Shown here: piece by piece, positions 14,933-30,043 of the stretch | Layout of the letters: the number at the start of each line of letters is the position of its first letter | Numbering within the stretch: the stretch's first letter is position 1 | Assembly (NCBI RefSeq): GCF_012932565.1 | Contig: NZ_JABBYJ010000003.1 | Span: 124,001 to 188,000, forward strand | Length of the DNA: 64,000 bases | From: Sneathiella limimaris | GTDB lineage: Bacteria > Pseudomonadota > Alphaproteobacteria > Sneathiellales > Sneathiellaceae | Direction: 5' to 3' | The notes under the pieces: model-generated | The model's database searches: none | What the model was told of the DNA's origin: nothing | The model's input: the letters and a program-made list of their open reading frames with translations, nothing else | Program-made: the position numbers and the translations under genes

Positions 14933-15060
14933 GTTGTAAAAGCGCCTAAGAAATCCGCTTACAAACACCTCGGTTATTGGCCGGGTACATTTTTCTGCAA
15001 AAAAATTGTAATTTTGTGTATTCGTTAATTGTAATTTAAGAAAATAAGCTTAAATTAAGT

Positions 15061-15157
15061 ATTAGCAACCCCGTCATGGGTTGTCGATTGGATCTCATCC
15101 AATCTGTTTGACGCCTCCCTGTTGACTTGAGCCGCCCAAAAGGCGGCTCTTTTTTTG
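15061..15157 (+). ncRNA. Candidate small RNA, unit D, with anti-SD box
   Basis: Lies in the 504-bp gene-free stretch 14933-15436, after a very AT-rich segment (about 15000-15060) that could hold its promoter. Three hairpins: 15066-15083 (CAACCC/GGGTTG), 15086-15104 (GATTGGA/TCCAATC), and an intrinsic terminator at 15129-15157 (GAGCCGCC/GGCGGCTC, loop CAAAA, then eight T). Between hairpins two and three is an unpaired CCTCCCTGTTG at 15114-15124, the box shared with the three units after lsrB. It can pair over 9 contiguous bases with CAACAGGGA of the metY ribosome-binding region 300 bp downstream. It may act in trans or belong to an interrupted metY leader. Inferred from sequence only. Confidence 0.6.
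15129..15157 (+). terminator. Intrinsic terminator of RNA unit D
   Basis: Perfect 8-bp GC-rich stem (GAGCCGCC/GGCGGCTC), a CAAAA loop and eight consecutive T. It would also end any read-through from the DUF1192 gene. Confidence 0.92.
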
Positions 15158-15436: not shown

Positions 15437-16750
15437 ATGGCAGATCCAAATTTCCTTAAATTCGATACCCTTAGTCTACATGCTGGCCATAAGCCGGATC
15501 CAACCACTGGTGCGCGTGCAGTCCCTATTTACCAAACAACATCATATGTCTTTAAAGACTCTGATCATGCAGCATCCCTCTTCAATCTGGAAACAACTGG
15601 TCACATTTATGCTCGTCTTTCCAATCCCACCACAGCAGTATTAGAAGAACGACTGGCTAGCCTTGAGGGAGGAATTGGTGCCATTTGCACAGCTTCCGGG
15701 CATGCAGCACTTCATCTCGCAATTGTAACTCTCATGAGCGCAGGATCCCATATTGTCTGCTCGCAATCAGTTTATGGGGGAACTTATAATCTCTTGAAGC
15801 ACACAATGCCTCGTTTTGGAATTGAAACGACTTTTGTAAACCCTCGGGATCTGGATGCTTTCAAGTCTGCTATTCAGGACAATACCAGGCTCGTGATCTC
15901 AGAAACTTTAGGCAATCCAGGCCTTGAAGTTACAAATATCCGGGCAGTGTCCGATATTGCACATGAAGCTGGCATCCCGCTTTTGATCGATAATACCTTT
16001 GCCACGCCATACCTCTGCCGTCCGTTAGACCATGGCGCAGATCTGGTCATGCATTCTGCAACCAAATTTCTCGGCGGTCATGGTATTGCCATGGCTGGCG
16101 CCCTCATTGATGGAGGACGCTTTGACTGGGCTAAAAGCGGTAAGTTTCCAACTCTCACCGAACCATACGAAGGTTACCATGGCATCAAATATGAGGAAGA
16201 GTTTGGGCCACTTGCCTTCCTAATGCGGGCTCGTACCGAAGGTATTAGGGATTTTGGCGCCTGTATCAGCCCAACCAACTCTTTTCATATCTTGCAGGGC
16301 ATTGAAACTTTATCCATTAGAATGGAGAAGCACGTTCAAAACGCCAGGAAGGTTATCGAGTTTCTATCCGGAAATGATGCTGTCGAGCATGTTTCCTATC
16401 CTGAGCTTGAAAATCATCCTGATCATGAACTCGCAAAGGAGATAATGCCAAAAGGATGCGGCTCCATTTTCAGCTTCACCGTCAAAGGGGGACGCGAAGC
16501 TGGCAAAGCCTTCATCGAACAACTGCAGATCTTTTCACATCTTGCAAATGTGGGGGACGCGAAAAGCCTTGTTATCCATCCTGCCTCGACAACCCATCAA
16601 CAGATGGATAAAGCAGCGTTGGAAAATGCAGGTATTTCAGAAGGTATGATCAGACTGTCTGTTGGGCTTGAGGATGCGGACGATCTTATCAAAGATCTTA
16701 AACTCGGCCTTCGGGCGGCTGCAAAAATTGCAGAAAAAGCTTCAGCTTAA
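15437..16750 (+). CDS. metY: O-acetylhomoserine sulfhydrylase (aminocarboxypropyltransferase)
   Basis: PLP enzyme that makes homocysteine from O-acetylhomoserine and sulfide (direct sulfhydrylation in methionine synthesis). 437 aa, typical of MetY and longer than MetB/MetZ. The Cys/Met-metabolism fold is complete, with YARLSNPTTAVLEERLASLEGG near residue 70 and the PLP-binding lysine K210 in MHSATKFLGGHG. The C-terminus has VGDAKSLVIHPASTTHQQM. It is followed 14 bp later by an alpha/beta hydrolase gene. The unusual leader suggests RNA-level control. Confidence 0.95.
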   Translation: MADPNFLKFDTLSLHAGHKPDPTTGARAVPIYQTTSYVFKDSDHAASLFNLETTGHIYARLSNPTTAVLEERLASLEGGIGAICTASGHAALHLAIVTLMSAGSHIVCSQSVYGGTYNLLKHTMPRFGIETTFVNPRDLDAFKSAIQDNTRLVISETLGNPGLEVTNIRAVSDIAHEAGIPLLIDNTFATPYLCRPLDHGADLVMHSATKFLGGHGIAMAGALIDGGRFDWAKSGKFPTLTEPYEGYHGIKYEEEFGPLAFLMRARTEGIRDFGACISPTNSFHILQGIETLSIRMEKHVQNARKVIEFLSGNDAVEHVSYPELENHPDHELAKEIMPKGCGSIFSFTVKGGREAGKAFIEQLQIFSHLANVGDAKSLVIHPASTTHQQMDKAALENAGISEGMIRLSVGLEDADDLIKDLKLGLRAAAKIAEKASA

Positions 16751-22368: not shown

Positions 22369-22403
22369 ACCTTACATTATTCAATTGGTGATTAATGTAA
22401 GGT
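22369..22403 (+). promoter_or_regulatory. 11-bp inverted repeat upstream of lsrB
   Basis: ACCTTACATTA (22369-22379) and TAATGTAAGGT (22393-22403) are perfect inverted repeats with a 13-bp spacer, ending 22 bp before the lsrB ATG. The size and position fit a LysR-type operator for autoregulation. As RNA it could also fold into a hairpin after trxB, but no T-tract follows. Confidence 0.6.
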
Positions 22404-22425: not shown

Positions 22426-23316
22426 ATGGATTGGGATAAGCTCAGGATATTTCATGCGGTTGCGGAGGCAGGCAGCTTCACTCACGCAGGTGAAACCTTG
22501 CACTTAAGCCAATCAGCTGTAAGCCGACAAATTAGTGCCCTGGAAGAAAGCCTTCAACTGCCACTCTTCCACCGCCACGCAAGAGGCTTGCTTCTCACTG
22601 AGCAAGGAGAACTCCTTTACCAGACAGCCCATGAGGTTTTTGCAAAGCTAGCGATGACCGAGGCGATGCTTGCAGACACCAAAAGCAAGCCAACTGGGGA
22701 GATTAAAGTCTCCGCGACTGTCGGAGTGGGTTCTAACTGGCTAACTCCGAGGATCAGGGAATTTATCGATCTCTACCCAGACATTACGGTCAACCTTATT
22801 CTGGCAGATCGGGAACTTGATCTTGCCATGAGAGAGGCTGATGTCGCTATTCGGTTAAGAGAGCCAGTGCAGCCTGACTTGATCATGCGGAAACTGATGA
22901 CTGTGAAGCACCATCTCTATGCTTCTACAGAATACATTCAAAAAAACGGGACACCGAAATCGCTTGAAGATCTGGTTGATCGAAAAATCCTAGTTTATGG
23001 CGAAGAAGCCCCCTCCAGTATTGCGAGTGTTAATTGGATACTCGACATGTTGAAAGAGGTTGATGAAAATATTCAGCCCATATTCAAGGTGAATAACGTT
23101 TATGGCCTCCTATTGGCTATTCAAAGCGGCCTGGGTATCGGCAGCCTGCCTGATTACATCACACAGGGCCATAAAGGAATTGTCCGCGTTTTGCCGGAAC
23201 TGGAAGGCCCTGAATTTGATGCTTACTATGTATATCCTGAGGAACTTCGAAACTCTAAAAGGGTCACGATTTTTCGGGACTTCCTAATCCGCAAAGTTTC
23301 AGAGTCTGTTTTTTAG
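22426..23316 (+). CDS. lsrB: LysR-type regulator LsrB/VtlR
   Basis: 296 aa. The N-terminal winged helix is MDWDKLRIFHAVAEAGSFTH followed by LHLSQSAVSRQISALEESL, nearly the wording I know from Sinorhizobium LsrB and Brucella VtlR; the C-terminal half (about 90-296) is the effector-binding domain. The trxB-lsrB order agrees. LsrB is linked to oxidative stress and symbiosis; VtlR activates the AbcR2 sRNA and small DUF1127 proteins. Here the gene is preceded by an 11-bp inverted repeat and followed directly by a cluster of RNA candidates, which suggests that they may be its targets. Confidence 0.88.
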   Translation: MDWDKLRIFHAVAEAGSFTHAGETLHLSQSAVSRQISALEESLQLPLFHRHARGLLLTEQGELLYQTAHEVFAKLAMTEAMLADTKSKPTGEIKVSATVGVGSNWLTPRIREFIDLYPDITVNLILADRELDLAMREADVAIRLREPVQPDLIMRKLMTVKHHLYASTEYIQKNGTPKSLEDLVDRKILVYGEEAPSSIASVNWILDMLKEVDENIQPIFKVNNVYGLLLAIQSGLGIGSLPDYITQGHKGIVRVLPELEGPEFDAYYVYPEELRNSKRVTIFRDFLIRKVSESVF

Positions 23317-23464
23317 GCACTTGGCCCAAAAACAACAAAAACCTCATATTGTCCCATAATTGCTTAGCCATGCACCTGGCGCATATCCGCTTTGACAATA
23401 TTCGACTACTCTTTCACCGAGCGATCTCTTAAAAGACGGGCATTGATTGTTGCAACGCAACACT

Positions 23465-23609
23465 CTCTGTTTCACGACAGTCTCCCATATGTTTCGTGAA
23501 CATTGCTGCTTGTATTCCTCCCAGTATCAAGCAGCCGTCATGACACACTCATGACATCCCCTGTTAGCTAAGGCCAATCCTTCCTCCCAAGGATTGGCCT
23601 TCTTTTTTT
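23465..23609 (+). ncRNA. Candidate small RNA, unit A, with multiple CTCCCA loops
   Basis: First of three consecutive units in the 786-bp gene-free region after lsrB. Hairpins: 23471-23500 (TTCACGA/TCGTGAA) with CTCCCA at 23482-23487 in the loop; 23505-23535 (GCTGCTTG/CAAGCAGC) with CTCCCA at 23518-23523 in the loop; 23537-23555 (GTCATGA/TCATGAC); and a terminator at 23570-23609 (AAGGCCAATCC/GGATTGGCCTT) whose own loop holds CTCCCA at 23584-23589, followed by seven T. A TCCCCTGTT box at 23557-23565 precedes the terminator. The repeated loops can pair with ribosome-binding sites. The exact 5' end is unknown. Upstream, ATATTGTC (23346-23353) and GACAATAT (23394-23401) form an inverted repeat that might be a control site. 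Confidence 0.68.
23570..23609 (+). terminator. Intrinsic terminator of RNA unit A
   Basis: Perfect 11-bp stem, 10-nt loop TTCCTCCCAA, then CTTTTTTT. The loop sequence is an anti-SD motif, so the terminator hairpin may also contact targets. Confidence 0.93.
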
Positions 23610-23735
23610 CAACCATACTGAACTAGGCTTTCAAACTGGAGTGACATTAACCTTGTGAGAAGCCATGCAGTAACTGCATGGGTGCACTGCAAAAAAAAGA
23701 GTGGCAATAAAAAGTGCATTTGCCTATATTCCATT

Positions 23736-23893
23736 CATCAACGTTGCAATGCAGCATTGATCAGAATATCGACCCCCTTTATCGATATTCTCAGCTACTC
23801 GCCTTCCTCCCAGTTGCGAGTAGCGTATCATCCTCGGATGATATACCTCCCTGTTAGACTTACCAGCCTCTGCGAAGAGGCTGGTCTTTTTTT
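23736..23893 (+). ncRNA. Candidate small RNA, unit B
   Basis: A TATATT box (23725-23730) with a weak GTGGCA at 23701-23706 could be its promoter. Hairpins: 23763-23791 (AGAATATCGA/TCGATATTCT, C-rich loop), 23795-23823 (CTACTCGC/GCGAGTAG) with CTCCCA at 23807-23812 in the loop, 23826-23843 (TATCATCC/GGATGATA), then the unpaired CCTCCCTGTT box at 23846-23855, and a terminator at 23863-23893 (CCAGCCTCT/AGAGGCTGG, loop GCGA, then T-rich tail). The order of elements is the same as in unit A: CTCCCA hairpin, short hairpin, C-rich CTGTT box, terminator. Confidence 0.7.
23863..23893 (+). terminator. Intrinsic terminator of RNA unit B
   Basis: Perfect 9-bp stem with a GCGA tetraloop followed by TCTTTTTTT. 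Confidence 0.93.
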
Positions 23894-23967
23894 GTCATGA
23901 GTCTACTGCATAGCTGCCATGTCAATTCACTAATGGGAATTCTTCGAAGCAAAACCATATACTGAGC

Positions 23968-24104
23968 ATGAGGGCTGAGTACCATTCCCCCCGAATATTA
24001 CTCCCTCATTTTAGTCGGTCTTATATCTCCCTGTTGGATCGGCAGCGCTTTTTAAAAAGCGCCAACCCTGTAAAATTGTCAGCCTCTAGGGGCTGACTTT
24101 TTTT
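23968..24104 (+). ncRNA. Candidate small RNA, unit C
   Basis: TATACT at 23958-23963 is a good -10 box just upstream. The 5' part is a long interrupted hairpin, 23968-24009 (ATGAGGG/CCCTCAT, then AGTA/TACT, then ATTC/GAAT) with a CCCCC loop. Then come the unpaired CTCCCTGTT box at 24027-24035, a perfect palindrome at 24045-24062 (GCGCTTTTT/AAAAAGCGC), and the terminator at 24078-24104 (GTCAGCC/GGCTGAC, then seven T). The RNA end overlaps the msrP stop codon on the other strand by two bases. Confidence 0.65.
24078..24104 (+). terminator. Intrinsic terminator of RNA unit C
   Basis: 7-bp stem (GTCAGCC/GGCTGAC) with T-tract on the plus strand. On the minus strand the same hairpin follows the msrP stop immediately and could end that transcript too, though its downstream T-run is poor. 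Confidence 0.88.
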
Positions 24105-25074
24105 ACATAAAGAGCCGCTCTCGCTTGCTCATTCCTTCATATAAATGCGCTACGGCATCACCATAACCGTTGAAAATTTGGGTCGGAATACGCTTGTTCG
24201 TGGCAATATCTCGTTCAGTTGCTTGCGACCACCGGGGATGGGGCACTTCTGGATTAACATTTGCCCAAAATCCATATTCACTTGCGATTAGCTCTTCCCA
24301 GAAACTCTTAGGCCGTGTCTCACTGAAGTGAAATCTTACAATGGATTTGATTTGCTTAAATCCATACTTCCAAGGCACAGCCAGTCTCAGCGGAGCGCCA
24401 TTCTGTTTGGGCAATGGTTTTCCATACAATCCAGTCACCATAAAAGCCAAATCATTTGTTGCCTCGGCCATTGTCAGCCCTTCGGTATAGGGCCAAGGAT
24501 ACCAGAACTGGCGCTGACCTGTTGCCATGCTCTTATCTTCAAAAGTCTGCATGACTAAATATTTTGCCTTAGATGTTGGCTTGGCGAACTTGACAAATTC
24601 TTTTAGAGCAAAGCCGCTCCAGGGAACCACCATCGACCATGCCTCCACACATCGATGCCGGTAAATTCGCTCCTCGAGAGACATTTTTGCCAACAGATCA
24701 TCTATGTCGATTTCCATCTCTTTTTCAACAGCCCCATCAATTTTCACAGACCAAGGGCGGATTTTTAGAGCCTGGGCAGCAGTATGAATTTCTTTGTGAG
24801 ATCCAAACTCATAAAAATTATTATAGGTCGTTGCGATTTTTTCTGGAGTTAGTTCCCGGCCACCCACATAAGCATGATTCCTGGCAACAGGGTAGAGATG
24901 GGCACTTGGATCTTCTGCAGCAAACACTGGGCGCCCGAAGGGGGAAAAGGCTGCGCCTGCGGCCAAACCTCCAATCCCCATCGATTTCAAAATTGCACGC
25001 CGATTAAGATATTTGCTTTCATCCAGCACATGATTTTCAGATAGCTCCCAGGCCTTCTTCAGTTTGATCAACAT
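24103..25074 (-). CDS. msrP: Protein-methionine-sulfoxide reductase catalytic subunit MsrP (YedY)
   Basis: Periplasmic molybdopterin enzyme that repairs oxidised methionines in envelope proteins. 323 aa. A Tat signal peptide is visible: twin arginines R25-R26 in LNRRAILKSMGIGG with a hydrophobic stretch after. The molybdenum-ligating cysteine is C142 in YRHRCVEAWSMVVPW. The rest matches MsrP throughout, including WYPWPYTEGL and PEVPHPRWSQATER. The haem membrane partner MsrQ, usually the next gene, is absent here; the gene ends against the RNA cluster. Confidence 0.95.
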   Translation of the reverse strand: MLIKLKKAWELSENHVLDESKYLNRRAILKSMGIGGLAAGAAFSPFGRPVFAAEDPSAHLYPVARNHAYVGGRELTPEKIATTYNNFYEFGSHKEIHTAAQALKIRPWSVKIDGAVEKEMEIDIDDLLAKMSLEERIYRHRCVEAWSMVVPWSGFALKEFVKFAKPTSKAKYLVMQTFEDKSMATGQRQFWYPWPYTEGLTMAEATNDLAFMVTGLYGKPLPKQNGAPLRLAVPWKYGFKQIKSIVRFHFSETRPKSFWEELIASEYGFWANVNPEVPHPRWSQATERDIATNKRIPTQIFNGYGDAVAHLYEGMSKRERLFM

Positions 25075-29713: not shown

Positions 29714-29815
29714 AATCAATCGTTTGTCTTCAAGCATAAATTTTGCGAAAACAGCATCATCGAAACGGATAAGAGATTTATGATCTTGAGCTCCCAGACA
29801 CGAAAGGAGTTAAAC

Positions 29816-30043
29816 ATGTCTACTAAAATGATCAATGCAAAGCAAACAGGGCACTTTTCAGTTAAGCCTCAGGCACCAAAGCCAAGTTTCTTTGAAGCGT
29901 TGGCAAGTACAGTGTTGACATGGCAAGAACGCTCCGAAATGCGCCGCAATTTGTCTGAATTGGATTCACGCAGCCTTGAAGATATGGGTCTGACATCTGC
30001 AATGGTTCAAGACGAATGCCGGAAGCCTTTCTGGCAAGCCTAA
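29816..30043 (+). CDS. DUF1127 domain small protein
   Basis: 75 aa from ATG at 29816, six bases after AAAGGAG. The C-terminal half is the DUF1127 (YjiS-like) motif, with WQERSEMRRNLSELDSRSLEDM. Such small basic proteins are common in Alphaproteobacteria; some bind RNA or affect phosphate, carbon or stress responses, and several are in the Brucella VtlR regulon. Divergent from a GcvA-like LysR gene and followed by a terminator hairpin. Confidence 0.85.
   Translation: MSTKMINAKQTGHFSVKPQAPKPSFFEALASTVLTWQERSEMRRNLSELDSRSLEDMGLTSAMVQDECRKPFWQA

Follow-up and report, generated by a model that had tools for sequence, protein, structure and literature searches.

In rhizobia and Brucella, AbcR has been studied in depth as an sRNA system. 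The ar15 family, to which its two RNAs AbcR1 and AbcR2 belong (alpha-r15, RF02345), was described from Rhizobiaceae and Brucellaceae, the two copies being expressed from independent units (PMC3712013). In Brucella, AbcR2 is controlled by VtlR (PMC7486931). The A. tumefaciens VtlR controls AbcR1 only, and for S. meliloti the reports on LsrB control of AbcR disagree (PMC7486931, PMC8844928). The LsrB/VtlR box reads GCAT-N3-TG-N3-T (PMC7486931, PMC8844928), and it is located at -61 to -49 in the S. meliloti abcR1 promoter (PMC8844928). The M1 motif of AbcR is CUCCCA, placed in a hairpin loop and accompanied by a second C-rich single strand and a terminator (PMC5461406). Both the VtlR-AbcR2 link and the CUCCCA-type motif had been named in the first-pass annotation of the DNA studied here, in agreement with these sources.

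Other described sRNAs have to be compared as well. The alpha-r8/mmgR/SisA-D RNAs are anti-Shine-Dalgarno (anti-SD) sRNAs found across the class, usually beside an N-formylglutamate amidohydrolase gene (PMC12559287), and the alpha-r14/NfeR1 and cuckoo RNAs carry repeated anti-SD hairpin loops (PMC3927594). SorX (RF02784) and SorY (RF02651) of Rhodobacter have transporters as known targets (PMC8307010), with SorX of R. sphaeroides arising from the 3' UTR of an mRNA other than lsrB (PMC6238624). CcsR-type sRNAs are often adjoined by DUF1127-type genes (PMC10253847).

Three structured RNA units between lsrB and msrP

The window, a 64,000-nt stretch of the 3.66-Mb Sneathiella limimaris genome, shares the gene order trxB-lsrB with S. 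meliloti and R. leguminosarum. Over its first 60 residues, the LsrB encoded here is identical to S. meliloti LsrB at 46 positions, against 102 of 236 in the remainder, as would be expected if DNA recognition had been kept. There are no cysteines in this protein, and 18 of 21 Sneathiella LsrB proteins are cysteine-free; none were found in the Azospirillum oryzae and Roseibium proteins read, while those of S. meliloti and R. leguminosarum have three. With most Sneathiella LsrB proteins free of cysteines, thiol sensing as described for rhizobia may have been added later or be a rhizobial trait. A long inverted repeat (22370-22402; CCTTACATTA ... TAATGTAAGG), possibly an autoregulatory site, lies directly upstream of lsrB. 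Further downstream, 5.7 kb from the RNA units described below, a small DUF1127-like ORF (29780-30043, recognized by eye and with no NCBIfam match) is found beside another LysR gene.

Between lsrB and the convergent msrP there are 786 bp, in which the first-pass annotation had proposed three tandem RNA units, each closed by an intrinsic terminator on the same strand. The analysis bears this out (Table 1). Each unit folds better than all 200 of its dinucleotide shuffles (z-scores of -7.0, -8.5 and -4.6 for A, B and C), all three terminators have a T-run and were placed by the scan at 23570-23601, 23862-23885 and 24078-24097, and on the two strands together 6 terminator-like sites were detected, where shuffles averaged 0.6. 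Protein-coding conservation through the stems, which the annotation had named as evidence against RNA genes, was not found: protein coding was rejected since the frame of the only ORF of at least 60 aa (81 aa, 23655-23900) has stops in 21 of 23 aligned genomes. The counts of CTCCCA, three in unit A and one in unit B, were also reproduced. The C-rich box described for all three units holds for A and B, whereas in unit C the proposed copy (CTCCCTGTT, 24027-24035) is a hairpin loop according to the alignment with relatives, and the true counterpart (24063-24077) is present here in a decayed form, CAACCCTGTAAAATT.

Table 1. Features of the lsrB-msrP region in the window (positions are those of the 64,000-nt stretch)
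Feature	Position	Strand	Basis and remarks
lsrB/vtlR, LysR-type regulator gene, presumed activator	22426-23316	+	N-terminal identity, trxB-lsrB order
Unit A LsrB-type palindrome, ATGC-N7-GCAT	23370-23384	+	Sequence; GCAT half predicts 5' end at about 23442
Unit A, predicted sRNA, about 168 nt	23442-23609	+	R1 match, fold, terminator; three CUCCCA loops, CCCCUGUUAG box; 5' end inferred
Unit A terminator	23570-23609	+	T-run, terminator scan
Unit B palindrome, ATGCAGTAACTGCAT	23665-23679	+	Exact in 19/23, at most one mismatch in 23/23 Sneathiella genomes
Unit B candidate LsrB/VtlR box, GCATGGGTGCACT	23676-23688	+	-61 to -49 of predicted start
Unit B promoter-like site, GTGGCA-N18-TATATT	23701-23730	+	1 found against 1.2 expected, weak alone
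Unit B, predicted sRNA, about 157 nt	23737-23893	+	23-genome alignment, covariation, fold; five hairpins
Unit B loop, UUCCUCCCAGUU	23804-23815	+	Alignment and fold
Unit B single-stranded box, ACCUCCCUGUUAGACU	23845-23860	+	Ahead of terminator
Unit B terminator	23862-23893	+	T-run, terminator scan
Unit C palindrome, ATGA-N7-GCAT	23897-23911	+	Sequence; one mismatch
Unit C candidate LsrB box, GCATAGCTGCCAT	23908-23920	+	Sequence
Unit C, predicted sRNA, about 136 nt	23969-24104	+	R1, R2, fold; CUCCCUGUU in hairpin loop; end touches msrP stop
Unit C terminator	24078-24104	+	T-run, terminator scan
msrP	24103-25074	-	MsrP model match; convergent with lsrB

From 40 genomes searched at the DNA level, the locus was matched in 23 of 24 Sneathiella (the window genome and 22 of the 23 others) and in none of the 16 genomes from elsewhere in the class. 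The region is flanked by lsrB and msrP in 21 of the 23 matching genomes; in the other two the contig begins inside the gap. For unit B, the alignment of the 23 genomes gives 37 consensus pairs, 19 of them with both sides changed and pairing kept. Pairing is possible in 98.9% of the cells, with a covariation score of 0.425 that falls to 0.153 or lower once the partners are slid. The invariant columns include the loop UUCCUCCCA and nearly the whole ACCUCCCUGUUAGACU box. With covarying stems on the one hand and a fixed CUCCC loop and box on the other, this conservation pattern marks unit B as an RNA with structural stems and putatively functional C-rich segments. Units A and C vary more among Sneathiella genomes. 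The covariance model R1, built from unit B only, matches unit A at 23443-23606 with 67.1 bits and unit C with 28.8 bits (E 2.9e-4), and a second model, R2, gives 19.9 bits on unit C (E 0.033). Across the window genome, R2 picks up units A and B and a BjrC1505 RNA and has no further match at E<=1.

A candidate LsrB site stands ahead of each unit. The GCAT of the published box forms the right half of a palindrome, ATGC-N7-GCAT, which we take to be a LysR-type site of the T-N11-A kind. The palindrome of unit A is exact in 20 and within one mismatch in all of the 21 Sneathiella genomes holding that part. That of unit B is the best kept across the 23 genomes (Table 1), with one (L016) having its best match 9 nt off the aligned place, and that of unit C is exact in 8 of 23 and within one mismatch in only 15. 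These counts can be set against 36 exact occurrences in 920 control windows, which overstate chance, as they were drawn from whole loci including promoters. The unit B box, at the abcR1-promoter position if the inferred start is right, is kept in place in 22 of 23 genomes, and parts of its promoter-like site are conserved in the Sneathiella alignment as well. With 9 occurrences against 12.2 expected, the 13-nt box shows no enrichment in the window, so its case rests on position and conservation. Applied to the three units, the -61 spacing predicts starts at 23442, 23737 and 23969, and the R1 matches begin at 23443, 23737 and 23968; R1 holds no promoter information, and its unit B start was fixed when the alignment was cut.

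Comparison with AbcR and other sRNA families

The Sneathiella units occupy the place of the AbcR genes, in tandem directly downstream of trxB-lsrB and on the same strand. The first AbcR copies of S. meliloti, R. leguminosarum and Shinella resemble unit B in having the palindrome at -72 (in Shinella with a single mismatch) and, at -61, the box (PMC8844928), both counted from where the first ar15 match starts. The second copies of these three species have no strict palindrome at -72. Also common are the CUCCCA hairpin loop, the second C-rich single strand and the terminator. On the other hand, Sneathiella has three units against two AbcR copies and two extra 5' hairpins, and its second motif is CCUCCCUGUUAGAC rather than GUUCCCCUC. 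In AbcR, CUCCCA lies in the first hairpin, while in unit B it is in the loop of the third, and the M2 motif GUUCCC between the AbcR hairpins is absent from unit B, which has CCUCCCUGUU there.

The ar15 model does not match in 23300-24120 at E<=1, while it gives 97-127 bits on three Rhizobiaceae loci. Conversely, R1 and R2 do not find the Rhizobiaceae AbcR RNAs (best score 5.1 bits). A search of 385 genomes of the class with ar15 matched nothing, controls included, and so carries no information; of 40 chosen genomes three gave weak matches to the model, and tblastn finds no lsrB at those three loci. The sequence AGCTGTTCCCCTCTGGA, as in AbcR, is present in the RNA stretch after lsrB of Labrenzia, Roseibium and Tepidamorphus, the first two with weak R1/R2 scores (E 0.0008 to 0.024 depending on the search) and Tepidamorphus with none. 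Position, promoter and design are thus common to AbcR and the Sneathiella units. Common descent of the RNA bodies is no more than suggested, as R1 and R2 do not score Rhizobiaceae AbcR. Judged by these models, the Sneathiella units are a separate, widespread branch apart from ar15.

At curated thresholds Rfam reports nothing in the gap. The models below threshold at E<=0.01 are ar14, suhB/mmgR, SorX and anti-hemB, all with CUCCC in their consensus. Less significant matches come from Atu_C4, SorY, SorX (a second match) and a nematode snoRNA. Membership was rejected for ar14/cuckoo (28.7 bits on unit A, E 0.0026, with a gathering threshold of 58.8), for alpha-r8/mmgR (suhB, RF00519; 28.4 bits, threshold 41), which is in the same Rfam clan as ar15, and for SorX and SorY on unit B (24.7 against 46.6 and 21.4 against 111 bits). 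The first-pass annotation had offered a relation to ar15 or ar8, or else a new family, and the last is the better guess. The supposed LsrB-linked cluster of anti-SD sRNAs with AbcR-like design is supported by the common place of the genes and the equal distances of palindrome and box.

The alpha-r8 RNAs are like the Sneathiella units in their anti-SD sequences and unlike them in their usual gene neighbor. The alpha-r14/NfeR1 and cuckoo RNAs share the repeated anti-SD loops, and we know of no link between them and LsrB. BjrC1505 (RF02356) has a similar box ahead of its terminator, CGCCUCCCUGUU, and an R2 match of 39.2 bits; its copy in the window (15028-15156, 67.8 bits) is located between a small ORF and the gene at 15437. 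Unlike the lsrB-linked units, it lies elsewhere in the window and has no LsrB palindrome in the preceding 190 nt, where at least 3 mismatches are needed. In SorX and SorY the box ahead of the terminator is ACCUCCCUGUUGGAC, while the origin of R. sphaeroides SorX from another mRNA sets it apart from the lsrB-linked units. An RNA after the Paracoccus lsrB scores 49.3 bits with SorX, above the threshold, and 33.3 bits with R2, a hint that SorX/SorY are the Rhodobacterales form of the lsrB-sRNA locus. The SorX-family match of Paracoccus ferrooxidans is located between lsrB and purL (L164, 3539-3626).

Relatives downstream of lsrB across Alphaproteobacteria

We collected 80 named lsrB loci and set aside 4 that belong to Sneathiella, two of them recognized by name and two by identity. 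In 52 of the remaining 76, R1 matches downstream of lsrB on the same strand (E<=0.01), 45 of them within 350 nt; R2, applied to the 24 others, adds seven (59 of 76). The matching records include Minwuia, Pelagibius, Thalassospira, Azospirillum, Kiloniella, Magnetovibrio, Magnetospirillum, Niveispirillum, Elioraea, SAR116 and Roseibium. Neither model matches in 17 loci, three of them with less than 300 nt after lsrB. Rfam, run at threshold on 40 of the 80 named loci, gave nothing in any of them, 35 of those having an R1 or R2 match, and it reports no sRNA in 20 further lsrB loci. Eight lsrB loci from a plasmid collection were also inspected: three have ar15, one SorX, and four (Methylobacterium, an Azospirillum plasmid, Tistrella and Microvirga) have no R1/R2 or Rfam match.

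In the 385 genomes of the class, R1 matched in 96, of which five are Sneathiella. Of the 73 rows in genomes with a listed lsrB, 60 follow that gene on the same strand, 46 at a distance of up to 1 kb (41 without the five Sneathiella genomes, which are sources of R1) and 14 within 6.5 kb, a distance class of our own cut. The other 13 rows, among them two each in genomes G232 and G321, are away from lsrB and may be other anti-SD families or moved copies. Twenty lsrB genomes negative in this search, chosen by us and mostly large (one, L141, is by its length the same contig as the named locus L102), were reread locally: R1 matched in 13, R2 in two more and five stayed negative. The 385-genome search therefore undercounts.

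The 66 aligned matches pair in 95.7% of cells, with a covariation score of 0.600 against at most 0.122 for slid partners, in an alignment that was fitted to the structure. The strict palindrome is found upstream of 34 of the 52 R1 matches, mostly at -70 to -80, and a looser form upstream of 37 of 57 relatives (shuffle mean 1.4, largest 6). The full 13-nt box, in contrast, precedes only 7 of the 57 (shuffle mean 1.0, largest 4). Among relatives, the general promoter element is the palindrome rather than the full box. Two R1 matches follow lsrB in loci of Thalassospira and Magnetovibrio (L041, L044, L045, L047 and L082), so that Sneathiella and rhizobia are not the only groups in which tandem copies emerged or were retained.

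Predicted regulation, targets and meaning

We consider it probable that the locus holds LsrB-activated tandem anti-SD sRNA genes repressing transporters and that it represents, in Sneathiella, an lsrB-sRNA locus widespread in the class, whose known branch would be the AbcR genes of Rhizobiaceae. The three units would be trans-acting sRNA genes with separate promoters and terminators, and LsrB, bound at ATGC-N7-GCAT about 72 to 58 nt before the start, would activate each of them. The RNAs would expose a C-rich anti-SD sequence, in unit B the UUCCUCCCAGUU loop and the single-stranded ACCUCCCUGUUAGACU before the terminator. Together with Hfq, whose gene is present in the genome, they may pair with GGGAG-type ribosome-binding sites (RBSs), chiefly of mRNAs for ABC and TRAP transporter binding proteins, and such pairing would block translation.

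Anti-SD motifs pair with many RBSs, and this genome has many transporter binding-protein genes. GGGAG occurs in the RBS of 15 of 37 solute-binding-protein genes and of 8 of 79 other genes (p 0.00025), the latter being 40 window genes (3 with GGGAG) and 39 neighbors (5). Considering only ATG starts with a clear SD, the counts are 14/25 and 6/34 (p 0.0025). Binding-protein genes have more GGAG and GGAGG as well, and AGGAG does not differ. Start codons were chosen by a rule of our own, which mis-called lsrB itself. Binding-protein genes are predicted to pair more strongly than window genes with the unit B box (median -13.1 against -9.4, p 0.0005) and slightly more strongly with the loop (p 0.047); the CCCCC loop shows no preference for binding-protein genes (p 0.84), and the 16S tail is nearly different between the sets (p 0.05). 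When the flanks of the CCUCCC core were shuffled, pairing became weaker for binding-protein genes and did not for controls: values as low for binding-protein genes were reached in 3 of 150 shuffles for the box and 8 for the loop, against 52 each for control genes, and a gene-set difference equally large appeared in 2 and 15 of 150. As GGGAG is richer in the RBSs of solute-binding-protein genes, these statistics fit repression of transporters by the units and suggest it. Together with the presence of the Hfq gene, they agree with the AbcR trait of repressing transporter mRNAs in an Hfq-dependent way.

The main targets of LsrB-controlled anti-SD sRNAs could instead lie elsewhere, the units acting as a broad translation brake or on another set, for example of redox genes. 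We regard this as unlikely. The exact ACTGGGAGG-N3-9-ATG occurs once in the genome, at a TRAP binding-protein gene, although this count is no enrichment, since its backward control occurs twice. AACAGGGAG ahead of ATG is found 7 times, against one for the backward control; four of these precede ORFs above 150 aa, encoding SBP_bac_5, CheR, a DUF169 protein and a winged-helix regulator, so that one in four is a transporter gene. Generally stronger SDs of binding-protein genes would explain part of the signal, and msrP and trxB are redox neighbors. Against these points, the enrichment of GGGAG persists among genes with a clear SD and the flank shuffles favor binding-protein genes.

It is equally improbable that the units are pieces of the lsrB mRNA 3' UTR cut by RNase E, in the manner of SorX, with no promoters of their own. 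Unit A starts only about 126 nt past lsrB on the same strand, and SorX is a precedent for such an origin. However, a separate palindrome, at the abcR1 distance, and a separate terminator belong to every unit, so read-through from lsrB must pass one strong terminator to reach unit B and two to reach unit C, and the AbcR RNAs come from independent units. That the units are cuckoo-type anti-SD arrays (ar14/NfeR1, CcsR), regulated by a stress sigma factor and unrelated to LsrB, is very unlikely: ar14 is the best Rfam model for unit A and there are several tandem anti-SD hairpins, but its score is far under the gathering threshold, the promoters have LsrB-type sites, the linkage to lsrB recurs across the class and the cluster has no DUF1127 gene.

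The LsrB-activated sRNA genes proposed here would work by a mechanism of a known kind. No lsrB-linked sRNAs outside Rhizobiales are reported in the literature searched, a scope that excludes most subscription papers, and the three sequence pieces searched in the main text of an Azospirillum sRNA paper are absent from it. Since a similar arrangement recurs in many other Alphaproteobacteria, the circuit described from rhizobia and Brucella seems to be older and wider than thought. We lean slightly towards an LsrB-sRNA circuit already present near the root of the Alphaproteobacteria, in which one ancient LysR regulator is combined with fast-changing anti-SD RNAs tuning transporters; its descendants would be the rhizobial AbcR, the SorX-like RNA of Rhodobacterales and the lsrB-downstream RNAs of Azospirillum, Thalassospira, Kiloniella, Magnetovibrio, SAR116 and Sneathiella. 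If so, the conserved lsrB-sRNA locus of many lineages would represent an old circuit of the class, position would offer a route to members whose sequence has diverged, and one could test how an sRNA regulon evolves while its regulator stays fixed.
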